This document shows, piece by piece, positions 21,854-41,681 of a DNA stretch of 64,000 nucleotides (its first letter is position 1; every line of letters starts with the position of its first letter). The notes below the pieces were generated by a model, which did no database searches, had not been told where the DNA came from, and was given only the letters and a program-made list of their open reading frames with translations. The DNA is from Fulvitalea axinellae (GTDB lineage: Bacteria; Bacteroidota; Bacteroidia; Cytophagales; Cyclobacteriaceae): contig NZ_AP025320.1 of assembly GCF_036492835.1 (NCBI RefSeq), forward strand, positions 124,001 to 188,000, in the 5' to 3' direction. The position numbers were made by a program, and so were the translations under genes.

Positions 21854-23311
21854 TCAATCTTCTATCTCAAAACCGTGTTTGGCTTTGGCGTATGAAGCAA
21901 GGCTTTTTATCAGTTCCTGAGCGCTGTCGTCAAGTTTGTTTTCGATAAGCCACGTTCCGTAAAATCCCAAAGCAGTCTCGCTCGGTTGGTCGGCCTCCCA
22001 TTCGGCTATGAATTTTTTCAGATAAGAATTTGACGACGTTTCCAAGTCGAAAAGGTATTCGGCCTGATCGTCTTCGGTTGCTTCGGCCAAAAGACGACGT
22101 TTTAGGTTTTTCAAATACTCGTCATACTCCGCGGATATTTCCTGTTTCTTTCGCTCGTAGCTCTGTTTCCTTTCCCGCTCTTCCGCCAACTTTCTTTTGC
22201 GGTCGGCCTCAGCGGACATTCCCTCAAATTCCTCCTGATAATAACCCGATTTCAGAGCCGTAATCAGATAACCCGTCTTGTTTGCCACCTCGTCCAAAGC
22301 GCTTACCTTCTTCACATAAAAATCGGTCAATGCCTTTCCGTACTTCTGTTCCAGTTTCTGGATAGTTGCCGGCTTTATTCCCGTTGCCGGTTTGGCAGCC
22401 GCTTTTCCTTCCGCCACTAGGTCCAGGCTTAACTGGCCCGCTTCCTGTTCCGCTACAATCCAAGCCGGGCTTTCCTCCATTGCAGGCGCTACCGGTTTTT
22501 CTTTCTTTTTCTTTGGCTTCTTTTCGGCTTTCTCCTTCGGAATCATCGGAGGCGAAGGCAAAAGTGTCATATCCATTTTGTCTTCCTGATTCTCCTGTTC
22601 GGAAGGTACGTTCTGCACGTTTTTCGACATATGGAAAATCAGCCCGACCACTTTACGGCCTTTTTTCTCCACTTCATACTCCACGTAAATATCGGACAAG
22701 GCGTTTATTTCCTTTACCGACACTTCGATCACATATTTCTTAAAATCGAAAAAGCGGTTGTACTTATCACCCACATACAGCATATCTTTCAAGTATTCCA
22801 AATCGAATTTCCTCGACCGGATTTTGGGATAATATTGCGCCAGCAATTCGTAAATACGGATAGAATGGGCGCTGCGAAAGGAAAAGACGTGCTTGAGAAA
22901 ATAGCTGGTGTAATTGTCCTTTAGGTTCAGCAAGAAAGGTTTCATCTGCGGCGAGAACTGAACGGTGATAAAGTTCTTGCCTTTCTCGCCCTCGGCCACG
23001 CTAATAAAGGCCATCGAACGCCACTTGTCGCCCTGCTGTAGATAAATGGCGCTATTGGTAAGCCCCACCGCCGCCTCTCGGATATCGTTATATTGCTGGC
23101 CTTTCACCTTGTCGTTGGGCCCCAATCCCAAAATCTCCGAAATCGAGATATGGTAAGGGATAAAATCCGCGTCGGTGATTTTGATCCTCGCCGCCATCAG
23201 CAATATGATTCTCTGCTGCATCAACGTAAACCGGCTCTTGGAATTAATGAGCTCGTTACTCTTAACTATCTTGTAGTCCTTGTACATCTCCAGCGAGGTC
23301 TGCGTTTTCAT
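21854..23311 (-). CDS. repB: Replication initiator protein, Rep_3/RepB superfamily
   Basis: The N-terminal 230 residues match Rep_3 initiators: YKIVKSNELINSKSRFTLMQQRIILLMAARI, then the first winged helix with ISEILGLG, the linker FISVAEGEKGKNFITVQFSPQMKPFLLNLK, and the second winged helix with FSFRSAHSIRIYELLAQYY. Rep_3 proteins bind iterons as monomers to open the origin, and repress their own gene as dimers. The following ~250 residues are unusual: a Lys/Pro-rich linker (KEKAEKKPKKKKEKP) and a long helical, charged tail, so at 485 aa it is longer than a typical member. The gene is read away from the iteron arrays, with a palindrome just before its start. Confidence 0.93.
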   Translation of the reverse strand: MKTQTSLEMYKDYKIVKSNELINSKSRFTLMQQRIILLMAARIKITDADFIPYHISISEILGLGPNDKVKGQQYNDIREAAVGLTNSAIYLQQGDKWRSMAFISVAEGEKGKNFITVQFSPQMKPFLLNLKDNYTSYFLKHVFSFRSAHSIRIYELLAQYYPKIRSRKFDLEYLKDMLYVGDKYNRFFDFKKYVIEVSVKEINALSDIYVEYEVEKKGRKVVGLIFHMSKNVQNVPSEQENQEDKMDMTLLPSPPMIPKEKAEKKPKKKKEKPVAPAMEESPAWIVAEQEAGQLSLDLVAEGKAAAKPATGIKPATIQKLEQKYGKALTDFYVKKVSALDEVANKTGYLITALKSGYYQEEFEGMSAEADRKRKLAEERERKQSYERKKQEISAEYDEYLKNLKRRLLAEATEDDQAEYLFDLETSSNSYLKKFIAEWEADQPSETALGFYGTWLIENKLDDSAQELIKSLASYAKAKHGFEIED

Positions 23312-23324
23312 AAGCGTCGTTGAT

Positions 23325-23340
23325 CTTTTGGCGCCAAAAG
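23325..23340. promoter_or_regulatory. Perfect 16-bp palindrome before repB, likely Rep dimer operator
   Basis: CTTTTGGCGCCAAAAG lies 13 bp upstream of the repB ATG. It overlaps an iteron-like copy (AGCGAGAAATAATTAA, 23339-23354) in the same orientation as the left array. Palindromic operators made of iteron half-sites are the known autoregulation sites of Rep_3 plasmids; here the palindrome itself differs in sequence from the iteron. Confidence 0.6.
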
Positions 23341-23411
23341 CGAGAAATAATTAATTCGTCGTTCAAAATAGGGAAAACGAAAATAGACGCAAAGCACGGC
23401 GACATATTACG

Positions 23412-23636
23412 AACGAGATTTTCTTAAAAACTAGGCCATAAAACCGGCGCAGGTTCCTAAAAGTGAGTTTTTCTTAACCTGGCAGATCTTACACGTCACA
23501 ATTGGAAGCCCTAGAAGCGAGAAATTCTTAATCGAGAACCCTTTCTTTAGGCAAAGAATACGCTTGAAGTGAGCAAACCTTAACGGCAACTCCAAAACGA
23601 AGATTTTCGAAGCCCCTTAAGGTGAGTATTTCTTAA
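23412..23636 (-). repeat. Left iteron array, five copies spaced about 53 bp
   Basis: Copies read on the minus strand as TTAAGAAAAACTCACT-like units sit at 23412-23427, 23462-23477, 23516-23531, 23568-23583 and 23621-23636. Start-to-start distances are 50, 54, 52 and 53 bp, about five helical turns. A degenerate sixth copy at 23339-23354 overlaps the repB operator palindrome. Confidence 0.8.
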
Positions 23637-23693
23637 GAAGGGTAACGGAGGTATGCCTTTTAGGAAGCGATAGACACTTTCAATAGATGGTTT

Positions 23694-23920
23694 TTAAGAA
23701 AAGCTCGTCTAAAAGGAACTGTTTCAGCCTCTTTGGTTAAGAAAAACTCGTCTTTAAAGATTAAGCAAAACACCCATTTAAGAAAAACTCGCTATTGGTT
23801 AAGAATCTCTCGTACATAAATTAAGAATCTCTCGCCTAAGCTTAAGAAAAACTCGTTTTTTTTTAAGAATCCCTCACCTCAACTTAAGAAAAACTCGTTC
23901 TATATTAAGAAAAACTCGTC
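23694..23920 (+). repeat. Right iteron array, ten copies, mostly 21 bp apart
   Basis: Units TTAAGAAAAACTCGT or TTAAGAATCTCTCGT begin at 23694, 23737, 23761, 23778, 23799, 23821, 23842, 23863, 23884 and 23905. The last seven are 21-22 bp apart, two helical turns, so they present one face of the DNA. The copy at 23761 is degenerate. The array is in opposite orientation to the left one. Confidence 0.88.
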
Positions 23921-24085
23921 TGGAAGGCTTTTTAATAACTGAAAAACAATGAGTTACGATAACCGAAAACATTAAAAACAATTAAAAAAATAAAACAACA
24001 AAACATTTTTAAAGGAGAGAAAGCCCCTCGTTTTGTTGTCTGTTTTTTTCGTTTTAAAAAATGTAGAAAAGAGAAATGATATCCG

Positions 24086-25099
24086 TCAATTGAAAAGCTT
24101 AATGTAGCGTTCCAATTCAGCTTTCAATTTTTTCGCTTCTGTTAACTTCTTCTCGCCTTCTGATTCCTTAATTCGATTTATAGATTCAGTTAAGAAAAGT
24201 TCGCTTTCAACTATTTGTTTAGTTCTGACTTCCCACACAGGCTCTTCCTGTATTGTCGGTTTAGACGAGTCTTTCTTAACAGTTCGTTTCTCAACCCTAG
24301 CCTTTTCCGCTTGCGTTCCGATCTCTTTTTCCGATTCAAGTTTCGGAATAGAATCGGACTTCGAAAGGCTCTCGATATCGGCTTGCTTTACTTTGAGTTT
24401 GCCCGACAGAATTTTCGTTTTTATCTCCGGATTTTCTTCCGCCAGTTTGTCGAGTCCCGTTGCGTAGTTCGCCGCGCGTTTCACGCTTTTCGGACTCATA
24501 TTGTTCTCCTTGGCAATTCGTTCAGCAGAATTAGACTTTTCCTGTTTTTCGTTGTGTTTTGTCAAAGGGTCATTTTGGCCCATTGATTTCTCCCCAACGA
24601 AATCATGATTATCTATTTCCGTGTTTTCATTGTACTTTGTCAAAGGGTCATTTTGACCCATTGACCCTTTGTAACCGCCACGGTCTTCTTTTTCCCTATT
24701 GTAGCGAAGCCCCACCAAGTAGATTTTCTGCTCTTTGCTCAGGTTCCGTCGCCCAAGCTGGTTGTCGATCATCCAGTCTTTGGCGGTTTGCAGGTCACTT
24801 ACCTCAATCGCTTTCAGCGGAAAGTCGAGCCCGTGTGTGGTGCAGACCCGGTGGCGGTTGTGGCCGTCTACCAATACGTACTCGTCGGTTTGCTTATTGT
24901 GCCAATACAGCAAGGGCTCACGACACCCCTCTTTGAGTATGTTCGCTTCCAGCTGTTCGAATTCCTCGTCTACCAACGGCGGAATAAGGTCGCGGAGCTC
25001 GTCGTATATGCGGATTTTGTTCTTGATCTCGGCGTCTTGGGCCAGTTTCTTGTCTTTGGCCAAGGCTATAGTCGGGATCAGTCTTTTTCGTTTATTCAT
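24086..25099 (-). CDS. parB: ParB-like partition protein with internal duplication
   Basis: The 337-aa protein has a ParB/Srx-type domain: LVDEEFEQLEANILKEGCREPLLYW, VLVDGHNRHRVC and IDNQLGRRNLSKEQKIYLVGLRY, followed by a helix-turn-helix region with SAERIAKENNMSPKSVKRAANYATGLDKL. ParB proteins bind the centromere and load ParA-driven segregation. Residues about 145-190 contain SMGQNDPLTKYNE and again SMGQNDPLTKHNE 27 residues apart; the DNA is repeated too (about 24555-24595 and 24635-24670), a recent in-frame duplication in the linker between domains. The C-terminus is charged and helical. The gene overlaps parA by 8 bp, so both are translated together. Confidence 0.88.
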   Translation of the reverse strand: MNKRKRLIPTIALAKDKKLAQDAEIKNKIRIYDELRDLIPPLVDEEFEQLEANILKEGCREPLLYWHNKQTDEYVLVDGHNRHRVCTTHGLDFPLKAIEVSDLQTAKDWMIDNQLGRRNLSKEQKIYLVGLRYNREKEDRGGYKGSMGQNDPLTKYNENTEIDNHDFVGEKSMGQNDPLTKHNEKQEKSNSAERIAKENNMSPKSVKRAANYATGLDKLAEENPEIKTKILSGKLKVKQADIESLSKSDSIPKLESEKEIGTQAEKARVEKRTVKKDSSKPTIQEEPVWEVRTKQIVESELFLTESINRIKESEGEKKLTEAKKLKAELERYIKLFN

Positions 25100-26042
25100 G
25101 GGTCAGTTCGTTACAAACAGCCATATAGTCTACGGCGCCATTACTTTTAGGGGCGTAAGTGAAGATGTCCTGGCTCAGCATCGTGGCTTCGCTCAGGGCC
25201 ATATTGTTCCGGATCACGGTTTCGAATGTCCGGAAATACGGAAAGCTCTCTTTTACGTGGTTCATGATCGTCTGGTGGTTGATCGTTCTTTTGTCTACCA
25301 GCGTAAAGAGGATTCCTTCCAAATCCAGCTTTTCGTTCAGTCCGTCTTTGATTTGGTCCACCGTTTTCAGGATCGTGTTCAAACCTTTTATGGCCAAAGT
25401 CTCAGGCTGTATAATAAGCACGAAACTGTCAGAAGCGATCAGGGCGTTTGAAGTTAGGATGCCGAGCGAGGGCGGACAATCCAGAAGGATGTAGTCGAAG
25501 TTGGTGATATGCTTTTCGAGGACTTTACGCAAACGCAGGTATCCGTCCGGACGTTGGTGGAGTTCCACGTCGGCGAGGGAAAGGTCAACGTCTGAAGGGC
25601 TGATGTATAGGCCATCGCCGATCTCCTCCAGCGGCAGTTCGTCGCCGTTTACCAAAGCGTCGTAAAGCTGTACCGTCGGCTCGTCTATCCCGAAGCACTG
25701 GCTGAGGTTGCCCTGCGGGTCCATGTCCACCATCAATACCCGCTTGCCTAGCATCGACAGGGCTTTGCCCAAATTGGCTGTTGTTGTGGTTTTGCCCACT
25801 CCCCCCTTGTGGTTCACCATCGCGATAACCTTGGCTTCCTGCCCGTCGGCCGTTTCCCGGTATCCGTATTTGAGTAGCACAGGCCCTATCTTGTCGAGGT
25901 GGCTATCATTCAGGGCCCGTTCCCCCTTAAGCACTTTGCTCAGGAGTCCGGTTGAGAGGTTGGCCTCCTTTTCCAAGGCCGAAAGGGAAAGTGCGGAGTT
26001 TTCCTTCAAAAACTCCGAAACCGTGTCGTTACTCAGCTTCAT
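25092..26042 (-). CDS. parA: ParA-family partition ATPase with N-terminal helix-turn-helix
   Basis: The ATG at 26042 (MKLSNDTVSEF) is preferred over an in-frame TTG two codons upstream; AGAGAAAA precedes it. Residues about 1-60 form a helix-turn-helix (LEKEANLSTGLLSKVLKGERAL), as in type Ia ParA proteins that repress their own operon. The ATPase has the deviant Walker A MVNHKGGVGKTTTTANLGKAL, MVDMDPQGNLSQ and YILLDCPPSLGILTSNAL. At 316 aa it is shorter than P1 ParA. Type Ia ParA moves plasmid copies along the nucleoid. The stop codon lies inside the start of parB. Two TGACTA palindromes upstream are likely operator sites. Confidence 0.93.
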   Translation of the reverse strand: MKLSNDTVSEFLKENSALSLSALEKEANLSTGLLSKVLKGERALNDSHLDKIGPVLLKYGYRETADGQEAKVIAMVNHKGGVGKTTTTANLGKALSMLGKRVLMVDMDPQGNLSQCFGIDEPTVQLYDALVNGDELPLEEIGDGLYISPSDVDLSLADVELHQRPDGYLRLRKVLEKHITNFDYILLDCPPSLGILTSNALIASDSFVLIIQPETLAIKGLNTILKTVDQIKDGLNEKLDLEGILFTLVDKRTINHQTIMNHVKESFPYFRTFETVIRNNMALSEATMLSQDIFTYAPKSNGAVDYMAVCNELTHE

Positions 26043-26119
26043 GACCAAAATTTTTCTCTTGAAAAATGATTTTGTCTGCGGAATCGTCCGCTAGGGCAAA
26101 GTAGGCAAAAAAATTTAGA

Positions 26120-31194: not shown

Positions 31195-32283
31195 ATGGAA
31201 AAGAGAGTCTGGAAAATATTAGGGCTAAGCCTGTTCTTCCTAATCTTGGCATCGATGTTTCCTGCATTTGGCCAAGGAATAAACCCTGACGGCATACCGG
31301 CGCGTGATACACTGAACGTCACGGTAAAGGTCCGCTGGCTCAAAAGGCAGTTCGTAACCTACACTTTCCAAAAAGGCGATTCGGTCAGGGTGATGTTCAA
31401 ACCTACCAAAGGTCCGGGAGGAAGCCCCTTCGGAGGTCTGACCTCCGTTGCTGGTAATAATCTGCCAACACCGCCAAGCCAGCTCACCGATGCTGCCAGC
31501 AAAGCCCAAGACTTGCAAAAACAAGCTGGAGCTGCCGGAGTAGATGTGAACGGTGCTTTGGACAAAGCGGGAGAGGGATCGGCCGTTTCACAATTTTCTT
31601 TTGTCAGGCAGGGCGGAGGGCCTCTGTATCAGGGTGTGAAAGTTTCCAACTTCGACCAACAGTTCTATATCCCCGCCAATGGCAACTACACTTTTATCTT
31701 CAAGAATTCCGGAATCACCTCAAAATATTATGCCCTGACGGTGATAAGGGTACGACCGCCGAAAGGCAAGACCTTGGCCAAATTGGACACCATAAGTTAC
31801 GATACGCTGGCAAACGTGATTCTGGAAAAAGAGCTGTTGCTGTCGCCAACGCGTGATCTTAGCTCCAAAAGCTCTTACATCATTCCAGTGGAATATGATG
31901 ACGATCCGTCGCTTTTGGGATTAAGCTACGTGATCACCGCCGACGAAAACTTGATTGATAGCCTGAAAATCGCCCAAGGCAAAGTGGGACCGTTCAATCG
32001 CAAAAGGCCCTCGGAAGGATTTGATTTCGACTACAACAGTATCCCCATATCCCCGACAGATAAAACCGAGTTCTACTTCAACATATTGCTCGACGGCGTC
32101 GAGTCCGTACCATTGTCCCATATCAACTACGTCGGGGCGCTGACGCCCTATAGGTTAAATGACAAACCGATGAGCCTTCTGGTAGAGAATCGGAGCAAAG
32201 TCAGACAAAGGCGGGTGTACGTAAAAGTGATACAATATCTTTTGGAAAGGAGGAAAGCGAACGATGACTCTTCAGTTGATTAG
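31195..32283 (+). CDS. Secreted protein of unknown function
   Basis: I do not recognise this protein. The start is set at MEKRVWKILGLSLFFL (31195), which opens a signal peptide ending near FGQG; an in-frame ATG seven codons upstream is possible. The mature part (about 335 aa) has a strand-rich start with VTVKVRWLKRQFVTYTFQKGD, a Gly/Pro-rich low-complexity stretch (KGPGGSPFGG), a helical Ala/Gln-rich segment (AASKAQDLQKQAGAAG), then a beta-rich domain with FDQQFYIPANGNYTFIFKN, which resembles a bulge-type beta-sandwich. No catalytic motif is visible. Its stop overlaps the next gene by 20 bp, so the two are coupled and probably work together at the cell surface or in the periplasm. Confidence 0.78.
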   Translation: MEKRVWKILGLSLFFLILASMFPAFGQGINPDGIPARDTLNVTVKVRWLKRQFVTYTFQKGDSVRVMFKPTKGPGGSPFGGLTSVAGNNLPTPPSQLTDAASKAQDLQKQAGAAGVDVNGALDKAGEGSAVSQFSFVRQGGGPLYQGVKVSNFDQQFYIPANGNYTFIFKNSGITSKYYALTVIRVRPPKGKTLAKLDTISYDTLANVILEKELLLSPTRDLSSKSSYIIPVEYDDDPSLLGLSYVITADENLIDSLKIAQGKVGPFNRKRPSEGFDFDYNSIPISPTDKTEFYFNILLDGVESVPLSHINYVGALTPYRLNDKPMSLLVENRSKVRQRRVYVKVIQYLLERRKANDDSSVD

Positions 32284-33313
32284 CTTTTGGTTGCGCATAC
32301 TGCTATGTCCGCTTCTGGTACTTTCTACGGTCAGGATGGGCAACGCCAGTGGAGATAAGCTCGTAATACCCGAATCGGAGATCGAATTTGAGTCTCCTTT
32401 CGAAGACTATATTGAGATGTATCCCGAGGATATTCCCGAGCATGTACTTTCGGCTTGGGACCCGCAGGGAGGCTTAGGTGATAAACTCAATACGGCCCGG
32501 ATGCCAAAAGAGACTTTCGACAGCGAAAAAATGAGCGCTATAGATACCGTAGGAAGTGCCGTAAAAGATTGTGTACGCGACAAACTGTCAAAGTATGATC
32601 CGAGAGGAAGAATGATGCAGTATCAGCAATTCCTGCACGACGAATACAACAACCGCATAGGCCAGTATCTGTATAACCCCTCTGGGCTCTTGCTAAACTA
32701 TGCGACGTTAGGATATGACGCTCTGGGACGCCCTCTGGAGTCTTTTTACTACAACGCTAAAGGTTGGATGCAATCAAAGGTACAATGGGCTTACGACGAG
32801 CGGGATTTGATTGCCAAATACCTTTACGACCAAAAGAACCGGATAGTCAGCACCGTCACGATGCAGTATGACGCTTTGGGACAGAAAATAGGGGAGTACT
32901 ATTACAACGCTAAAAACCAGCTTATAAAATATCGGCAATACCTCTACGATCAATTCGGGAACTTTGCCTCGTATCTGGAGTATAATCGCTTTGGTAGGCT
33001 TATAGGAAGCGCCTATAGCTCATTGGCATCCTATTATCAATCAGCTCAACAATATTACGCAGATCAGCGTGACAAAGTTAAGCAGTTTTATGCCGATCAG
33101 CGTGCCCGTGTGGAAGGCTGGAAACAATACGCTCAAGGCAAGTTTGACGAATACGGCAATAAAGCCAAAGAAGTTCTCTATAACGCCAAAGGTGAGGTTT
33201 TGAAATACACGGTATACATGTTCGACGAATGGGGAAATATGCTGGCGGCGCAGTACTACAATGCTAGAGGTGTTGTTCTGTCGTATGCTGTGGCTAATTT
33301 CACATGTTTTTGA
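32264..33313 (+). CDS. Secreted YD/RHS-like repeat protein of unknown function
   Basis: The ATG at 32264 is preceded by GGAAAGGAGG, an unusually strong Shine-Dalgarno sequence for this phylum, placed inside the end of the previous gene. A signal peptide (ISFWLRILLCPLLVLSTV) leads to an acidic segment and then, from about residue 108, repeats of the form YDxxGR...YYNAKG...YLYDQ, about 20-24 residues each, like the YD repeats of RHS/teneurin shells. The array is short (about 8-9 units), and no toxin domain or peptidase core follows. Residues 250-290 (YYQSAQQYYADQRDKVKQFYADQRARV) are a helical interruption. The C-terminal 30 residues reappear as a decayed copy near 34.8 kb. Confidence 0.8.
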   Translation: MTLQLISFWLRILLCPLLVLSTVRMGNASGDKLVIPESEIEFESPFEDYIEMYPEDIPEHVLSAWDPQGGLGDKLNTARMPKETFDSEKMSAIDTVGSAVKDCVRDKLSKYDPRGRMMQYQQFLHDEYNNRIGQYLYNPSGLLLNYATLGYDALGRPLESFYYNAKGWMQSKVQWAYDERDLIAKYLYDQKNRIVSTVTMQYDALGQKIGEYYYNAKNQLIKYRQYLYDQFGNFASYLEYNRFGRLIGSAYSSLASYYQSAQQYYADQRDKVKQFYADQRARVEGWKQYAQGKFDEYGNKAKEVLYNAKGEVLKYTVYMFDEWGNMLAAQYYNARGVVLSYAVANFTCF

Positions 33314-33356
33314 CGGAATTGGGTAGGAAGCGCAAGTCTTGTTTAGGCGTATCTTA

Positions 33357-33848
33357 TTACGCCATACATTTAGTTACGTTTAACATTTTCTCTATTTTCT
33401 TCTTTTCTGTTAAAGCCTCTTCCTTGTCCCAATAAAGTTTGATCGGAATCTCGTTTTCTGAATCTTTATAATATATCTCATATCCCGTTCTGTTGTGATC
33501 AAGTCTGATGTCGCCTCCTATCGGCTTGCTTTTGAATGTTTGCGTCTTAATCCTGATTTTACTTCGGTTTGTGAGATTGACCTTTTTGTAAAAGAAGTTC
33601 TGTGTAGAGAATACTAATTCTCCCTTTTTTCGATTGATAATTATGAAATTTAGGATTGTGGTTTTTAGGCTAATTCCAACTATTAGCGAGTATATAAAAA
33701 ATGAAATGACCGAACCTAAATCTGCGGTATAAAATAGCCCGATTAATAGAGTCGCTATACTTAATATTATGAGTGTCGCATTTGTGTTTGGCTGTATCTG
33801 ATAAACTGTGAGGCCATGTTTTTTCAAATTCTTATTGATCACTTCCAT
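33357..33848 (-). CDS. Small membrane protein of unknown function
   Basis: Not recognised. The 163-aa protein has two membrane segments close together (about residues 24-42, LIILSIATLLIGLFYTA, and 46-72, VISFFIYSLIVGISLKTTILNFIIIN) and a soluble C-terminal half of beta-type character with KGELVFSTQNFFYKKVNL and GYEIYYKDSENEIPIKLYWD. Such an arrangement resembles bacterial PH-like or DUF-type membrane proteins, but no family can be named. It is AT-rich like its neighbour upstream on the same strand, 89 bp away. Confidence 0.65.
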   Translation of the reverse strand: MEVINKNLKKHGLTVYQIQPNTNATLIILSIATLLIGLFYTADLGSVISFFIYSLIVGISLKTTILNFIIINRKKGELVFSTQNFFYKKVNLTNRSKIRIKTQTFKSKPIGGDIRLDHNRTGYEIYYKDSENEIPIKLYWDKEEALTEKKKIEKMLNVTKCMA

Positions 33849-33937
33849 AGCATGTTTGAATCAGGCCTACTGCAAAGTAGAGCACGGTTCGTATTGAATC
33901 AAAAAAATAAGGTGTTTGACGGAGTTTGCATCACTCC

Positions 33938-34573
33938 TTATTTTATTTCTATTTTCTTTCCTAAAAATTTAGGATCCACACCAAAAAGTATATCTAAAAA
34001 TGCCTTTGTCCGAGCAAAATATTCCCTGATACGAGTTTTTAGACCGTTTTTTCCAGATAAATCTCTGGCATTATACCCAACAGCGGATATTCCGTTTTTT
34101 TCGGCAAGGAATATAGCGCGTTCATTATGAAACTTTTGGGAAACGACTGTTATACTCGCCTGTCCAAAAATCTCTTTTGCCCTTACCACAGAGTCTAAAG
34201 TCCGGAATCCAGCGTAATCGAGATAAATCCTGTTTTCTGGAATACCTTTTCTAATTAATTCGTTCTTAAAATCGGTAGGCTCATCATAGTCTTTGCTTCC
34301 ATTATCCCCGCTTACTAAGACGAAATCAATCTTTCCTTTCTTATATAGCTCAATCGTAGCGTCTATCCGGTATTTAAAGTATAAATTGACGTTTCCATTT
34401 CTCAACGTTTTCGAGGTTCCAAGCACTAGTCCGACTTTGTTTTTTTTGATTCTGGATAACTCCGAAAAGGTTTTGTTTTTGGCGTTTAATTCAATCGAAT
34501 AGTTTGCGATAAAAACCAATACGATTGGAATAGTGATAATTAGTAAAAATAATGGGATTATTTTCTTTATCAT
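33938..34573 (-). CDS. SanA/YdcF-like (DUF218) membrane-anchored protein
   Basis: An N-terminal membrane anchor (IIPLFLLIITIPIVLVFIANYSI) is followed by the DUF218 fold: KVGLVLGTSKTLRNGNVN, YFKYRIDATIELYKKGKIDFVLVSGDNG, ELIRKGIPENRIYLDYAGFRTLDSVVRAKEIFG and ITVVSQKFHNERAIFLAEK. These match the SanA branch, which in Enterobacteria is linked to envelope barrier function and vancomycin exclusion. The 211-aa length is normal. It is the upstream member of a two-gene minus-strand pair in the AT-rich island. Confidence 0.88.
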   Translation of the reverse strand: MIKKIIPLFLLIITIPIVLVFIANYSIELNAKNKTFSELSRIKKNKVGLVLGTSKTLRNGNVNLYFKYRIDATIELYKKGKIDFVLVSGDNGSKDYDEPTDFKNELIRKGIPENRIYLDYAGFRTLDSVVRAKEIFGQASITVVSQKFHNERAIFLAEKNGISAVGYNARDLSGKNGLKTRIREYFARTKAFLDILFGVDPKFLGKKIEIK

Positions 34574-34737
34574 AATAGGTAGTTGGGCTGATTTTGTTGC
34601 CAGAATATATTACATTGAAGTAAATGTAATGCTTATGTGTTCGGCATTATATACAGGAATTCAGTTTTTAACTCTTATATGCATTATACTATAGCGGTTA
34701 AAATCTAATATTTTAAAATAAATACAATAAAACCAAT
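34574..34737. other. AT-rich gap upstream of the SanA-like gene
   Basis: No gene recognised. The stretch may include further eroded parts of the YD-like gene copy: AAATAAATACAATAAAACCA at about 34716 resembles the intact gene's segment upstream of its last repeat. Confidence 0.3.
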
Positions 34738-34863
34738 ATTTTTAGAAGTATATGATATAATATGTTCGATGAACGGAGGAATATGTTAGTTTTGAAGTAT
34801 TATAATGCTAATGAGGTTGTTCTTTCTTATGTAGTAGTTAATTTTATACTGGGCTTTATTTAG
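34738..34863 (+). pseudogene. Decayed copy of the 3' end of the YD-like repeat gene
   Basis: The frame ending at the TAG at 34861-34863 reads MFDERRNMLVLKYYNANE and onward VVLSYVVVNF; the intact gene ends MFDEWGNMLAAQYYNARG then VVLSYAVANF. Nineteen of 28 aligned residues from MFDE are identical. Just upstream the frame is broken by a stop (TGA at 34753), and similarity fades further left. The copy has drifted toward A/T at third positions. By chance or not, GAACGGAGGAAT precedes the internal ATG at 34783, so a 26-residue peptide could still be made. Confidence 0.7.
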
Positions 34864-34940
34864 GATGTAAAAGGGGATGTTTTTCTCTAGTGTTTATAGA
34901 TCGCCACCACTTATAATATAAACAACTAATTTTTTTGATA

Positions 34941-36998
34941 CTATAGCTCATAGTTTATTGGTTTAATCAGCTTTTTGTCAATATAACTGAGAGTAAAATT
35001 TAATCCTTGAGTTGCAGTTTTGAAAGAATCGTCTGAATTCTCAAAGGATGCAAAAAGAAGTATTTGAACTCCTTTATAACCTGATAATTCAGTTAGGAAA
35101 TTACGAAAATGGTTTATCGAGATATCCTGCTGTTTAGGCTCGTCAAACATCATTAAATTGGGGTGATTGCAATCAAATTGCTTTGATGTAAGGTATAAAC
35201 TGCAAGTGTACGCCCATATACAACGAATAAAATCACTTGCACCAGAATCAAAACGTAAATCATAACTCTTTAAATCCTCACCAAACTGGGTTTGAGCAAC
35301 AGGCAAATAGTTATCTAAAGAAATATTAATTAAGTCATTTGATTTACTTGTATACTCAAATCTACCTATAAGCCTTTTGAATTCTTGAAGTAAATATTCA
35401 AGCTTCTTCCTGTCATTTGAGGAAAAATAATCATTAGGTAATTTATCCGTGTCGGATAAAATCTGTGCATATCCGTTTGATAATTCTTGTATTTCTTCAA
35501 TATATTCATTGAAATCCTCTAAGTATTTTGTGTAAAATTCAATTCTTTTCTTGATATTTAATTTGCGTTCAATTTCAACTTCAGAAGGTAACCTGTCATC
35601 CGAAATAAGTTCCTTTTTGATTTTTCTTAACTGTTGACGCTTATTGGATAGATTTAATCTTATACGTTTTTGTCTAGCTTCTTTAGTTTTTATTTTAAAT
35701 TCTAGTCCTTCAATATATACTTTAATCATCTTTATTTGAGCCTCAATAAAGGCTATATTGTCCTCGATTAGCATCGGTGTTTGAGCTATTTCCGTAGGTA
35801 ATAAAGAATCTTTTACTGGTTGTTCGCAAGTAGGACAAATATCTTGAGCTATTTTGCTATTAATTTCAGCACCCAGTTTTTTAACCTTTTGAGCACCTTT
35901 ATTTTTTCTTAAATCTTCTTTAAGAGATTCTATCTGAACTCTATATCGAGCCAATTTATCTTTATCAAAACCTAATTCTTCTGATATAATTTGATAATTT
36001 AAGTAATTTGTATTTATACTTTCATTTAACGAATCTAGCTCTGCTTCATTCTGCTCAATCTTTTCAGAGACTTTGGGTATAATAATATTTTTAACTAACT
36101 CCAATTCTTTTGTTTGCAAATCTATAAAATCAGGAATAGTGTATTGTTCTTCATCTTTTGAAAGCAATATTGAAATACTATTAGTGTCATTAATAATCGT
36201 TGGTTTTGATTCAAAGCCATACAATTTACCTCGTCCTTTTTCTGCAAATCGTGTGAGCTGTTTAAATAAATTTGCCCATTTCTCTTCTAATATTCTTTTT
36301 GATGTATTTAGTTTTAATTTCTTTTGTTTATTCTCATAAACATCAAGATCTAAAACAAACTCAATAACTCTAGCTTCCTTATTTGTTAAGCTATAAAAAG
36401 GCATTGTTGCTAAAAAATCAGACCAGCCAGATTTTTGCTCAATAATGAATGATGGGGCAATCTGTTGTAAGTAAATTTTTCTTTTATCACCTGATTTGGT
36501 TAAAACACTTGGTAAACTCCAACCTAAAAAATTCTCTAAAAATAAATGATATCCATAAATGTCATCAGATGCTCCTCCTTTATCATGTATGTACATTGGT
36601 TGAGAATCAATAACTTTATTTTCCCCTGTTAATAAGGCACCATTAAATACGTCAATAAGTTGTGATGCTCTTCCTTCGCATTTAACTCCTCTTTTTGCCG
36701 TAACTATCCTTTTATCGCTGTTTTCGAACTCTAAAGAAACGAAAGATTGCAAAACCTGATGAAATGTATCTTTGGGATATTCAACAATATCTTTTAACAC
36801 CGATTGCATGGTTTTCTCATTTTTACCACCAATAAGTTCCTCAAATCCTAAGCAATAAAGAATGGATTGAAACAAACTACTTTTTCCAGAAGTATTATTC
36901 CCTCGTATAATATTAAATCCCTTCTCAAATGTGTACTCTGCTCCAAAAAGACCAGAATTTGTATTTATCTCTATTTTTACTGCACGTATATTAATCAT
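34941..36998 (-). CDS. Rad50/SMC-like ABC ATPase of an ABC-3C/Lamassu-type defence system
   Basis: The 685-aa protein has an N-terminal half ATPase with Walker A GNNTSGKSS (residues 33-41), a coiled-coil arm in two halves, a zinc-hook CPTC at 388-391, and the second ATPase half with MMFDEPKQQD (about 616-625; Walker B) after a signature region with FDSGASDFIRCIW. This is the Rad50-like layout with a fairly short arm. In ABC-3C (Krishnan et al.) and Lamassu systems such an ATPase senses invading DNA ends or replication intermediates and licenses a nuclease effector. Gene order effector, middle component, ATPase agrees. It overlaps the middle-component gene by 8 bp. I rate the system type as well supported by architecture, not by a search. 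Confidence 0.85.
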   Translation of the reverse strand: MINIRAVKIEINTNSGLFGAEYTFEKGFNIIRGNNTSGKSSLFQSILYCLGFEELIGGKNEKTMQSVLKDIVEYPKDTFHQVLQSFVSLEFENSDKRIVTAKRGVKCEGRASQLIDVFNGALLTGENKVIDSQPMYIHDKGGASDDIYGYHLFLENFLGWSLPSVLTKSGDKRKIYLQQIAPSFIIEQKSGWSDFLATMPFYSLTNKEARVIEFVLDLDVYENKQKKLKLNTSKRILEEKWANLFKQLTRFAEKGRGKLYGFESKPTIINDTNSISILLSKDEEQYTIPDFIDLQTKELELVKNIIIPKVSEKIEQNEAELDSLNESINTNYLNYQIISEELGFDKDKLARYRVQIESLKEDLRKNKGAQKVKKLGAEINSKIAQDICPTCEQPVKDSLLPTEIAQTPMLIEDNIAFIEAQIKMIKVYIEGLEFKIKTKEARQKRIRLNLSNKRQQLRKIKKELISDDRLPSEVEIERKLNIKKRIEFYTKYLEDFNEYIEEIQELSNGYAQILSDTDKLPNDYFSSNDRKKLEYLLQEFKRLIGRFEYTSKSNDLINISLDNYLPVAQTQFGEDLKSYDLRFDSGASDFIRCIWAYTCSLYLTSKQFDCNHPNLMMFDEPKQQDISINHFRNFLTELSGYKGVQILLFASFENSDDSFKTATQGLNFTLSYIDKKLIKPINYEL

Positions 36999-37467
36999 TG
37001 AATAAAGTCCATTGGTTAGCTAATCCTTTCAATCTTGTATCGGTTACTTTCTTCTTACCTATCGTTTTCAGTAGAGTAATTTCTTCAGAAAGTATTTCTT
37101 CATCTTCTTCAATCTTTTCGCAATACAGTTTGCCTTTTTCCTCAAGCTTGTATGTACCTTTTGAGTAAGAGCAATATTTTTCAGCAGTTGCAATATGTAA
37201 TGCTCTATTCAAAGTAGGTTCTATTCCCCATACTGAAAAATCAGATTTAAAATCGCTTTCAACAAACCGAAGCAATGTGGTGCGATTTTCAATTCTTTTA
37301 AACGCCCATGAAAATAAATGCAGTTTTAATAAACTCGATTTGTTCCCGATACATGCATATTTTAAAATTAAACATATCTGAGCAATCTTATAATTGGGTC
37401 TATAGTCTGCAGGTACAGAAATAGGTCTTTTAGTGAACGATAAATGTTTGATATTAAATTCACTCAT
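36991..37467 (-). CDS. Middle component of the ABC-3C/Lamassu-type system
   Basis: The start is MSEFNIKHLSF at 37467, separated by one base from the effector's TAA stop (TAAtATG); an upstream TTG would overlap it. The 158-aa protein is mostly helical. Its middle (KLHLFSWAFKRIENRTTLLRFV) and C-terminal half (LNRALHIATAEKYCSYSKGTYKLEEKGKLYCEKI) look like a winged-helix domain. ABC-3C systems always encode a small middle component of this kind between effector and ATPase, thought to bridge the two. I cannot name the exact middle-component subfamily. Position and tight coupling on both sides are the main evidence. Confidence 0.78.
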   Translation of the reverse strand: MSEFNIKHLSFTKRPISVPADYRPNYKIAQICLILKYACIGNKSSLLKLHLFSWAFKRIENRTTLLRFVESDFKSDFSVWGIEPTLNRALHIATAEKYCSYSKGTYKLEEKGKLYCEKIEEDEEILSEEITLLKTIGKKKVTDTRLKGLANQWTLFND

Positions 37468-37468
37468 A

Positions 37469-38398
37469 TTATTCAAAATCAATAGGACAACGTAAAATCC
37501 AATCTGCCATAACTTGATTACACAAATTTTGAATCATCGTTTGGTCTAAATAGGGAAATGCATCTTTTATTTTCGCCTCTACCATAGTCGAAAACATTTT
37601 ATGCAGAGTATTATTGTCTTTGTTCGGAAACATACATTCTTCAACAACTTGTTCTTCGACTTGACTAATTATTTTTATAAATTTTTCATAATCCTCAGGG
37701 TAATCACTTTGCCATTTCTTCAAAATATCATTGCCTTCAAGAAAGTGACTAACGCTTTTTTCTGTTAGGATGTCAACTTTCTTTTCTATCCCCTTCGTGC
37801 CTGATTCAAATCTTGCTTTATGTTTTCTTTGGGCATTTTCAACAAGGGATATTTTCTTGTCTATCCATTGAAATTTTATTTCATCTGTTGTTATTTTACT
37901 TGGAATAATGTCAATTTTTCTTTCACTAATTTTGAGTAATTGATGTATTTCAGGCTTAAGAAAACCGATATCAGCAGGTATTACTTCAAAGGTTGAATTA
38001 TCAATTATTGATAGTTCCCATGATTTAACTTCATCCCTTTTCTTTGTGCAATGGTCTACTAAATCATTTTTACTATTCATTGGTGTAACAAAAAACCATT
38101 GTTTAATAAGTGCACCACCCAGTTTCTTGGAAAGTTGGCTTTCAAAAGTCTTTAGCTTGTTTAAATCTTTTGTGATTTTATTCCTTTGTTTTTCATATAG
38201 TTCACTTGAACTATAATGTTCGTCGGGACAATAACATTGGAATGCTTTTCCGCTTCGAGTAAATCCTTCTATTCCGTAATCACCTGGAGTTGCAGGTATT
38301 TCAAAGTAAGAATCATTCTCATATCTTCTCTTAAATACTATTTGGCAAACATCTTCCCATCTGTCACCATCAAAATTTCCGTATTCTGTTTTTATCAT
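37469..38398 (-). CDS. Restriction-endonuclease-like effector of the ABC-3C/Lamassu-type system
   Basis: The ATG at 38398 gives MIKTEYGNFDGDRWEDVCQ; the frame extends 9 codons to a TTG without support. Residues 10-60 form a PD-(D/E)xK-like nuclease core: E15 on the first helix, PGDYGIEGF (D40, E44) and then FQCYCPDEH (Q54). The usual lysine after the Q is a tyrosine, so either a later lysine (the KQRNKITKDLNKLK helix) replaces it or this is a subfamily trait. The remaining ~200 residues are helical and probably bind the middle component and ATPase. In Lamassu systems the effector degrades DNA and kills or arrests the cell on infection. It is the first gene of the operon. Confidence 0.8.
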   Translation of the reverse strand: MIKTEYGNFDGDRWEDVCQIVFKRRYENDSYFEIPATPGDYGIEGFTRSGKAFQCYCPDEHYSSSELYEKQRNKITKDLNKLKTFESQLSKKLGGALIKQWFFVTPMNSKNDLVDHCTKKRDEVKSWELSIIDNSTFEVIPADIGFLKPEIHQLLKISERKIDIIPSKITTDEIKFQWIDKKISLVENAQRKHKARFESGTKGIEKKVDILTEKSVSHFLEGNDILKKWQSDYPEDYEKFIKIISQVEEQVVEECMFPNKDNNTLHKMFSTMVEAKIKDAFPYLDQTMIQNLCNQVMADWILRCPIDFE

Positions 38399-39133
38399 GG
38401 TCGGATTGTATTTACGAGTCGGCAAAAAATAACTCTTTTATAAGCCAAAGAATCAGCTTGTGAATCGGAGTTTGCGAATGTGCTGTTTGCGTATTGGATT
38501 CTCATCAATTTATTTCTTGTTACAACAGTTTTATTAATATGAATGCTAACGTACTGATAGCAGGAATACCTGTTTATCAAGAGATTGAAAACGAACACGC
38601 TCAAAATCTCAAATACTTAACATCAACGTTTCCAGTATAATTTCCCCCAAAAAACCTTACATCCCCAATCCCTTCATATCTCTTAGATAGATACTATACT
38701 GATAAGGCATAGATCAGGATACTTCCAAGCACGGATAAAGACACTTAGGGTATGCTACGGGAAAAGTACAAAAACAGCAAAAAGCATAGCGAAACGCCCC
38801 AAAAACTTACTTATGGATAAGTGGGCGTATATCATCGCAGTGAAATCCTAGCCAATATAAGTGAAATGTGTCCTTGCTCCAAGCCTCTGGCCAAAGAATC
38901 AGGTCCCGCTTATCAACGATTTTTACGGCAGAAACACGAATATTTCCGGTCGGCGCTAATCACAAACAAGCTTGGCTACAGATTCGTTTACAAAGTTGAA
39001 TTACCCGCATAAATTCTGTACTTTGATTAGGGCAATATTCTGGTCCTGAGAGGGTTTTAACTTGGTGGATTAGATATCGGTTGCCCTTATAAATACGGGG
39101 TGGGAAGTGGCGATACATATAATTTGAAGGATT
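38399..39133. other. Gap right of the defence operon, composition boundary
   Basis: The left part belongs to the AT-rich island and must hold the defence operon promoter. From about 38.65 kb composition returns to that of the neighbours. A 63-codon frame from a GTG at 38821 to 39012 is of ordinary composition but unrecognised and has no ribosome binding site; it may be a gene remnant. A hairpin-rich AT leader precedes the NfeD-like gene. Confidence 0.35.
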
Positions 39134-39697
39134 ATGAACGATTTTAACCTATGGTGGGAAGCTTTGCCTTTGCTGGCCAAAGGCTATTGGAGCCTTGCCT
39201 TACCCGCAACGGTAGTTTTTTTGGTAATGATGGCACTCACCCTTATGGGGAGTGACGCTGATATAGACGCCGACGACCCCACAGACAGCGACGGAAGCAT
39301 TATCTCGGTTAAGACGATAGTGGGATTCTTCACATTCTTCTCCTGGACCGGCATAGCGACACTTAACTCCGGAGCGGCTTCTTGGCTCTCCTTGGTCTAC
39401 GCCCTTATAGCCGGTATTTTGGTGGTTATAGCGTTGGTATGGCTTATGTCCCTGATTCCCAAACTAAGCGCCGACGGCACTACCAGACTAGGGGAAGCCT
39501 TGCTAAAAAGCGGGGAAGTATATTTAACTATACCGCCCATGAGAACAGGGCTGGGCAAAGTACAAGTAGCCGTCAACGGAGGCTTAAGGGAGCTGGAAGC
39601 CATGACAGACGAATCCGGATCATTGGGCACTGGCACTCAGGTAGTGGTAATAGAAGTACTGGACGGAGGTACGCTTCTGGTTTCCAGGTTAGAGTAA
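39134..39697 (+). CDS. NfeD-like membrane protein with OB-fold domain
   Basis: The 187-aa protein has an N-terminal membrane segment (about residues 17-38, GYWSLALPATVVFLVMMALTL), an acidic loop (SDADIDADDPTDSDGS), two further segments (about 58-105) and a soluble C-terminal beta domain with GEVYLTIPPMRTGLGKVQVAV and VVVIEVLDGGTLLVSR, the OB fold of NfeD/YuaF/YqiJ proteins. Such proteins are encoded beside flotillins and act with them in membrane microdomains. The flotillin gene follows after a 403-bp gap, unusually long for this pair and filled by repeats. Confidence 0.85.
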   Translation: MNDFNLWWEALPLLAKGYWSLALPATVVFLVMMALTLMGSDADIDADDPTDSDGSIISVKTIVGFFTFFSWTGIATLNSGAASWLSLVYALIAGILVVIALVWLMSLIPKLSADGTTRLGEALLKSGEVYLTIPPMRTGLGKVQVAVNGGLRELEAMTDESGSLGTGTQVVVIEVLDGGTLLVSRLE

Positions 39698-40100
39698 TTG
39701 GGGTATTTAATATGAGGTATTAAGTCTTAGGTTCTGTCTCAATGTAGTTGCTTAAGGTATATGGTGGGTTTCTATAAGGGGAATCCGATAAACCATAAAG
39801 TTGGCAAGACTCAAAACCAAACTGGTGCGAGCGGAACGCTCGTACCCAAAAGTGTTGTAGCCTCTAGCTACACACTTCAGTTTGACAAGCCAGATCAACA
39901 CAATTGTACCTAATACTTCATACCAGATACCTAATTCCAAAAAAGAACACACAATTCACTTTTATATATGGGTAGAGGCTCAAGACTGAGGCTTGACGCA
40001 ACTGGCGTTTACGCGATAGTTTCATCAAAATTCGGTCTTGGGCTGATACACTTAGGAGTCAATCCAGATCATGTAGTTTTTTCATTTAACCAACAAACCA
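39698..40100. repeat. Repeat-filled gap between the NfeD-like and flotillin genes
   Basis: AGGTATTAAGTCTTAGGT (39715-39732) and ACCTAATACTTCATACC (39908-39924) form an imperfect outer inverted repeat related to the element at 15777-15849. Inside are GCGAGCG/CGCTCGT (about 39827-39843) and GTAGC/GCTAC (about 39857-39871) hairpins. The block looks like an inserted non-autonomous palindromic element. The last 150 bp would hold a flotillin promoter. Confidence 0.5.
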
Positions 40101-41681
40101 ATGGGATCAAGTTTATTGGCCGTTATCGTCGGCGGGGTCGTCTTTCTGATGATCATCCTTATTTCCTTGTTCAAGCGTTACAAACGCTGTCCATCAGACA
40201 AAATTCTGGTGGTTTACGGTAAAGTGGGGGGCGGAACGGCCCGTTGTATCCATGGCGGAGCGGCCTTTGTATGGCCGATTATCCAAGACTTCGCTTTCTT
40301 GGACCTCAAGCCCGTCTCTATCGAAGTGAACCTTACCAACGCCCTGAGTAAGCAGAACATTAGGGTGGACGTTCCGTCGAGGTTTACGGTGGGCGTATCC
40401 ACCGAGCCGGTGATTATGACCAACGCCGCCGAGCGTCTTTTGGGCCTGTCTATGGAGCAAACCCATGATTTGGCCAAAGACATTATTTTCGGTCAGTTAC
40501 GTTTGGTGGTGGCCACTATGGATATTGAGGAGATCAATAGCAACCGCGACAAGTTTCTCTCAAACGTGGCCACGAACGTGGAAGCCGAGCTCAAGAAAAT
40601 CGGTTTGCGACTGATCAACGTGAACGTGACCGATATCAAGGACGAGTCCGGCTATATCGAGGCCTTGGGCAAAGAGGCGGCCGCCAAAGCCGTAAACGAC
40701 GCCCGTAGAAGAGTGGCCGAACAAACCCGTGACGGATCCATCGGCGAGGCCATTGCCGTAAAAGAACAGCGAGTCCGCGTATCGGAAACCGAGGCCGAAG
40801 CCAAAGTGGGCGAGGCCGAGGCTATGCGTACCCAGCGTATCAAGATGTCTGAGGCGGAAGCCAAAGCCAAAATCGGTGAAGCCGAAGCGGATTCCCAAGC
40901 CAAAATCGGTGAGGCCGAGGCTTTGAGGTCACAGCGTATCCAAGTATCGGAAGCCGATGCCCGTGCTGTGGAAGGCGAGAACCAAGCGAAGATCGATATT
41001 GCCGATTCGGAGTCGGTGCGTCGTGAGAGAGCTGCCGAGGCCTTGAGAAAAGCCGTCGCCGCCGAGAAAGTTGGCGAAGCCAAATCTTTGGAAGAAGCGT
41101 ACCACGCCCAAAAGGAATCGGAAGAGGCGAGAGCCAAGCGCGACAAGGCCCGCCAAATGGCCGACGTGGTGGTGCCGGCCCAGATATCCAAAGACAAGAC
41201 GGAGATAGACGCCGAAGCGGAAGCCGAGAAGATCAGAAGGCACGCCAAAGGCGAAGCCGACGCCATATTTTTCAAGCGTCAGGCCGAGGCCAAAGGTCTT
41301 TACGAAATCCTCTCGAAGCAGGCCGAAGGTTTGGACCAGATCGTCAAGGCCGCAGGCGACGATCCGCGTGACGCCGCCATGCTCCTTATCGCCGACAAGC
41401 TTCCTGAGTTGGTGAAACTCCAGACCGAAGCCATCAAGAATATCAAGATCGACAAAGTGACCGTCTGGGACGGAGGCAACGGCAACGGAACGCCGGAGTT
41501 TATTTCGGGCTTGTATAAGTCAGTGCCGCCATTGCAGGATATGTTCAATATGGCCGGAATGCAGTTGCCTGATTTCCTGAAAGGCAAAGACCTGAAGAAA
41601 CCTGTGGAAGTTCAAGAAACGGAAGCCCTAAACGGTGTTGACGTTATAGATGAACCTAAAAACGGATCGTCGGAGAATTAA
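40101..41681 (+). CDS. Flotillin family protein (SPFH domain, YqiK-like)
   Basis: The 526-aa protein has one N-terminal membrane segment (SLLAVIVGGVVFLMIILISLF), the SPFH domain at about residues 30-200 with ILVVYGKVGGGTARCIHGGAAFVWPIIQ and VDVPSRFTVGVSTEP, and a long coiled coil rich in EAEAK and GEAEA repeats (about 215-390). EAKGLYEILSKQAEGLDQIVKAAG is the conserved end region. Flotillins oligomerise in membrane microdomains and affect signalling, protein complexes and stress resistance. It pairs with the NfeD-like protein. A terminator follows 46 bases after the stop. Confidence 0.93.
   Translation: MGSSLLAVIVGGVVFLMIILISLFKRYKRCPSDKILVVYGKVGGGTARCIHGGAAFVWPIIQDFAFLDLKPVSIEVNLTNALSKQNIRVDVPSRFTVGVSTEPVIMTNAAERLLGLSMEQTHDLAKDIIFGQLRLVVATMDIEEINSNRDKFLSNVATNVEAELKKIGLRLINVNVTDIKDESGYIEALGKEAAAKAVNDARRRVAEQTRDGSIGEAIAVKEQRVRVSETEAEAKVGEAEAMRTQRIKMSEAEAKAKIGEAEADSQAKIGEAEALRSQRIQVSEADARAVEGENQAKIDIADSESVRRERAAEALRKAVAAEKVGEAKSLEEAYHAQKESEEARAKRDKARQMADVVVPAQISKDKTEIDAEAEAEKIRRHAKGEADAIFFKRQAEAKGLYEILSKQAEGLDQIVKAAGDDPRDAAMLLIADKLPELVKLQTEAIKNIKIDKVTVWDGGNGNGTPEFISGLYKSVPPLQDMFNMAGMQLPDFLKGKDLKKPVEVQETEALNGVDVIDEPKNGSSEN

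Follow-up and report, generated by a model that had tools for sequence, protein, structure and literature searches.

A 64,000-nt stretch of the Fulvitalea axinellae contig NZ_AP025320.1 (positions 124,001 to 188,000, hereafter the window) carries three tightly coupled minus-strand genes at positions 34941-38398 that very probably form a Lamassu type II (ABC-3C) defence operon. We place the probability of this reading at roughly 0.88, with the defence activity itself assigned by analogy. The first gene, lmuA (37469..38398, minus strand; ATG at 38398, stop codon 37469-37471), encodes the 309-aa effector, followed by lmuC (36991..37467, minus strand; ATG at 37467, stop codon 36991-36993) for the 158-aa middle component and lmuB (34941..36998, minus strand; ATG at 36998, stop codon 34941-34943) for a 685-aa Rad50/SMC-like ATPase. 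The list of open reading frames and the DNA agreed on both junctions: lmuA and lmuC are one base apart (TAA-t-ATG), and lmuC and lmuB overlap by 8 bp (36991-36998). The coordinates, sizes and junctions given in a preliminary description of this DNA, made from the sequence alone, were all correct. The AT-rich setting that it reported was also borne out, with a G+C content of 31.0% for positions 34941-38425 compared with 47.9% for the window outside 33314-39000.

The preliminary description had proposed a Lamassu/ABC-3C identity, which a profile search upheld. PADLOC named the three proteins LmuA (model PDLC03852, 3.8e-34, profile positions 17-333 of 336), LmuC (PDLC03871, 2.8e-22, positions 3-151 of 156) and LmuB (PDLC03863, 1.1e-100, positions 3-598 of 610). 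The window proteins match these models over nearly their whole length, and we found no feature that sets this copy apart from them. Pfam assigned no confident family to LmuA or LmuC and only SMC_N to LmuB, slightly below its cut-off (38.4 vs 40 bits), while NCBIfam gave no match above its cut-offs for any of the three. A scan of a genome collection with LmuA recovered 25 loci, and the order effector, middle component and ATPase in one operon, which is that of Lamassu type II/ABC-3C systems, was found in all 25. Because three genes have long profile matches and all 25 fetched relatives are syntenic, the operon lies far beyond what chance would produce. For alignment, we combined the window with 24 of the 25 loci for LmuA (leaving out L026, whose frame is broken), with 22 for LmuB (leaving out L007, a near-duplicate of L006, and the broken L023 and L026) and with 23 for LmuC (leaving out L007 and L026); the LmuA proteins of L002 and L004 were aligned from their ATG starts. 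All aligned proteins matched the same three PADLOC models (LmuA 25/25, LmuC 24/24 and LmuB 23/23). The window operon is an intact and well-preserved, but ordinary, member of Lamassu type II.

The nearest relative, in Ancylomarina sp. DW003 (L002), had amino acid identities of 83.0% for LmuA, 84.7% for LmuC and 85.6% for LmuB. At the DNA level, 80.2% identity was observed over positions 34959-38551, and the remainder of the 12 kb of window under comparison gave no match, so that the shared unit consists of the operon and about 150 bases upstream. For the three genes, dN between the two loci was about 0.09 and dS was 1.1 to 2.9 (saturated), indicating that all three are kept by purifying selection. 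In a relative on an Azospirillum ramasamyi plasmid, an annotated IS5-like transposase gene separates lmuA from lmuC (L048, 2788-3593).

The AlphaFold2 model of LmuA (pLDDT 86.6, pTM 0.55) has two parts, a restriction-endonuclease-like (PD-(D/E)xK) domain at about residues 1-150 and a C-terminal LmuA domain at about residues 160-309. Its first fold matches were chains of solved Lamassu entries, and both parts had fold matches with moderate Z scores; the N-terminal effector domain and the LmuA-type C-terminal domain are thus seen in the fold matches as well as by PADLOC. The succession of secondary-structure elements in the N-terminal part, together with matches to Avs4, EcoT38I, MspJI, Shedu and Cap4, again at moderate Z, points to a restriction-endonuclease-like core. 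Modelling therefore bore out the nuclease-like PD-(D/E)xK N-terminus that had been read from the letters. LmuA differs from the Cap4 nuclease of CBASS in its C-terminal half, which matches LmuA, and no match to a SAVED domain was among those listed for it, though one may be present.

Conservation of the active site was counted in 40 LmuA proteins, namely the 25 aligned sequences and 15 of the 23 LmuA-bearing plasmid records (the other 8, as well as L053 and L054, were left out); several rhizobial sequences in this set are closely related and not independent. The preliminary description had noted Q-C-Y where Q-x-K is expected and had suspected a variant catalytic site. The motif is indeed there, yet it is not peculiar to this nuclease, as Q54 was found in 40, C55 in 39 and Y56 in 40 of the 40 proteins. 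Q-C-Y is the norm of this LmuA subfamily, across several phyla, so it argues only weakly that the window copy has an altered or lost activity. Other positions were also well kept: D40 in 39/40, E44 in 34/40 (Asp in 6), E15 in 35/40 (Gln in 4), and both D78 and K81 in 40/40. The lysine missing from the strand motif has a candidate on the next helix (residues 64-84 in the model), where K74 is present in 39 of the 40 proteins. Lysines can move within the PD-(D/E)xK fold, and K74 may be a displaced catalytic lysine replacing that of Q-x-K. No paper on such a displacement in this fold was found in a literature search. The active site of the subfamily is likely to comprise E15 on the first helix, D40, E44 and Q54, plus K74.

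A single LmuA, from a Priestia megaterium plasmid (L047, NZ_CP085436.1, 2577-3512), carries Glu at K74, Lys at E15 and Gly at D40 and retains Q54, Y56, D78 and K81. The simplest reading, with modest support, is that E15, D40 and K74 form one active site, which in the Priestia effector no longer supports catalysis; the support is modest because this is a single event in a single lineage. From its sequence, this effector is possibly a natural, catalytically dead LmuA. The LmuC and LmuB genes of L047 are open, and two genes encoding TIR-domain proteins lie downstream.

Could the window operon itself be a catalytically dead Lamassu remnant, given that the canonical Q-x-K is absent? Besides Q-C-Y itself, such decay has parallels among the relatives: L047 lost its presumed catalytic residues with its genes still open, and two of the 25 loci contain broken genes, in LmuB for Bacillus sp. 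FJAT-27225 (L023) and in both LmuA and LmuB for Alicyclobacillus fastidiosus (L026), where the LmuB match is limited to residues 2-74. However, the three genes in the window are open and under purifying selection, and E15, D40, Q54 and K74 are all present. With Q-C-Y being the subfamily norm, we rejected this reading as highly improbable.

LmuB gave a model with a pLDDT of 83.3, and its top fold matches were likewise chains of solved Lamassu complexes. The protein has the size expected of a Rad50/SMC-like LmuB of about 650 aa, with a head, a coiled coil and, as in many members, a CPxC hook. Walker A (G38, K39, S40), Walker B (D619, E620) and a CPTC hook at residues 388-391 could be located, in agreement with the Rad50-like ATPase with a zinc hook that was first described. 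We compared 28 LmuB proteins, 23 from the alignment and 5 of the 24 LmuB-bearing plasmid records. Walker A, the two hook cysteines and D619-E620 were kept in all 28, the hook being CPTC in 27 and CPSC in one. According to a review (PMC10586767), LmuB proteins generally have glutamine in place of the Walker B glutamate, and ATP hydrolysis by Vibrio Lamassu may be slight or absent. The glutamate intact in 28/28 proteins of this clade, the window's LmuB among them, does not agree with the statement on glutamine.

A Rad50-like protein with a nuclease partner could also be part of a Rad50/SbcC-like module for DNA repair or the maintenance of replicons, with no role in defence. In both structural comparisons of LmuB, however, Lamassu chains outscored Rad50. 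Moreover, Pfam identified no Mre11/SbcD family in the partner proteins or in the two downstream neighbours. The distribution is patchy, as expected for defence genes: the LmuA profile was found in three of 395 sampled genomes of the phylum, including the own genome and one weak match (4.3e-4), and in none of the 8 other sampled genomes that share a family with the own genome. On the structural ranking and the lack of an Mre11-like gene among the partners and these neighbours, we rejected the repair module, to which we attach very little probability.

The middle protein was expected to be a winged-helix-like component of about 158 aa. Its place between the effector and ATPase genes, its small size and its identity as LmuC held (PADLOC 2.8e-22, with 24/24 aligned members alike), while the winged-helix label proved weak. 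Pfam listed 12 families for the 24 LmuC proteins, and HTH_45 was found in 8 of these proteins (best E 0.0071); the LmuC of the window was not one of the 8 and matched nothing in Pfam at E values up to 1.

Solved Lamassu type II complexes offer the closest structural comparison. The LmuACB complex of Salmonella enterica (9hqu, 9hqx, 9hr5) and the Lamassu type II entries 9nxx, 9ny1, 9ny5, 9nyg, 9uxh, 9uxi and 9uxl gave the best fold matches for both LmuA and LmuB. They have in common with the window proteins a Rad50-type LmuB and an LmuA made of an N-terminal restriction-endonuclease-fold part and a C-terminal helical domain. Identity to the solved Lamassu chains was only 3-15% in the structural alignments, and no Lamassu chain was recovered when the Protein Data Bank was searched by sequence, whether with individual proteins or with profiles. 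At 309 aa, LmuA is shorter than the matched chains, whose residue numbers reach 377 and 391. Vibrio cholerae DdmABC likewise consists of a nuclease, a small middle protein and an SMC-like ATPase, and is classed as both ABC-3C and Lamassu type II in a review (PMC12409362). For Walker B, a glutamine is reported (PMC10586767), where the window's LmuB has glutamate. The review that classes DdmABC gives DdmB a DUF6521 domain. This domain was found neither in the window's LmuC nor in its 23 aligned relatives, being absent among the 12 families listed, although we did not confirm that the library still includes a model so named.

Beyond what we established for this operon (gene identity, LmuA and LmuB fold matches, conserved residues, synteny and purifying selection), its mode of action can be proposed by homology, from complex formation and trigger to release and cleavage. 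In three reviews (PMC10586767, PMC12904381, PMC12409362), LmuB is described as probably sensing DNA ends or hairpins, and activation as freeing LmuA to assemble into a tetramer and cleave DNA, including the cell's own. Release and tetramerisation of LmuA have been reported for other Lamassu members (PMC12409362, addendum), and chains of LmuA tetramer entries are among the fold matches of our LmuA model. By analogy, two LmuB subunits joined through the zinc hook would act together as a Rad50-like sensor that recognises DNA ends or hairpins, and LmuA would be kept inactive within the complex. DNA presented by phage or plasmid replication would then trigger its release, and the freed LmuA would assemble into a tetramer and cleave DNA, that of the cell included. 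As a result, phage spread would be aborted, or plasmid carriers outgrown.

This analysis largely confirms what profile tools would give, yet it suggests two testable differences between the subfamily and the described systems: where the catalytic lysine sits, and a Walker B glutamate that is intact. Tentatively, the PDLC03852/03871/03863 clade might be a Lamassu variant in its mechanism, with a nuclease whose lysine is displaced from the Q-x-K strand to K74 and an LmuB that hydrolyses ATP, its glutamate being intact, and can be reset once it has sensed its trigger. It would then differ from the members for which impaired hydrolysis and irreversible activation have been described. We consider this possible but doubtful.

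The analysis also provides an example of an intact Lamassu whose contig, 226,742 bp in length, resembles a plasmid. Genes for a Rep_3 initiator, a ParB-like protein and a ParA-type ATPase were identified by Pfam at 21854..26048 on the minus strand, outside the Lamassu system, and the earlier statement that the replicon has its own rep and par genes stands. Rep_3 (21854-23311, 8.2e-30) and the ParA-type ATPase (25092-26048, 7.7e-50) were clear, and the ParB_N match at 24086-25099 was weak (0.005, below Pfam's cut-off). In the own genome, the largest contig (C1) measures 4.87 Mb and each of the other 14 (C2-C15) carries at least one Rep_3 gene, for a total of 15, with two on C12; the genome therefore appears to be multi-replicon. 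An anti-plasmid kind of system thus seems to coexist with many replicons in this host, 13 further contigs carrying Rep_3 besides that of the operon. Plasmid carriage of such Lamassu is not unique to the window, since 24 of 72,556 PLSDB records contained a relative of LmuB that covers at least 80% of the query, and 23 contained a relative of LmuA. A megablast of window positions 33000-40000 revealed no similar plasmid record, and none of 50,697 phage records contained an LmuB relative at E 1e-5.

The operon could also be viewed as a device for replicon competition, by which a plasmid-borne system excludes other plasmids or phages to the benefit of its carrier in a many-replicon cell. The Rep_3 genes on all 14 contigs besides C1, the 24 plasmid records with a relative and the action of Lamassu on plasmids, stated in a review (PMC12409362), all favour this view. 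It is, however, compatible with a Lamassu defence operon rather than an exclusive alternative, and as a separate explanation we regard it as unlikely.

Upstream of lmuA, the stretch common to the window and L002 (38399..38551, minus strand), which falls within the 80.2% DNA match, is a possible promoter region. Two Bacteroidota-type promoter patterns were sought in the 170-base upstream regions of five operons, that of the window included, and had no match, and promoter- and terminator-like patterns were no commoner than in shuffled sequences. Positions 38430-39130 had no second copy in the own genome, and none of the repeats listed (20 of 44 direct and 25 of 39 inverted) was convincing as an edge repeat. 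A neighbouring gene at 40101-41681 was matched in 5 of 19 genomes, own included and one match weak, in a set with no further genome of the same genus.

Downstream of the operon, two AT-rich genes extend to position 33357, with G+C contents of 33.7% and 34.7%. One (33938-34573) encodes a DUF218/SanA-like protein (Pfam 2.1e-21) and the other (33357-33848) a 163-aa protein with no confident family in Pfam or NCBIfam. An imperfect inverted repeat of 26 nt (33892-33917 / 34920-34945, 85%) flanks the DUF218/SanA-like gene. Beyond these genes lies an RHS/YD-like repeat gene (32264-33313), the 3' end of which (33198-33300) recurs in decayed form at 34741-34844, on the far side of the two AT-rich genes, with a local score of 85 compared with a maximum of 33 in 300 shuffles. 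This decayed copy may mark an old insertion beside the RHS/YD-like gene, or may be a decayed tandem copy.
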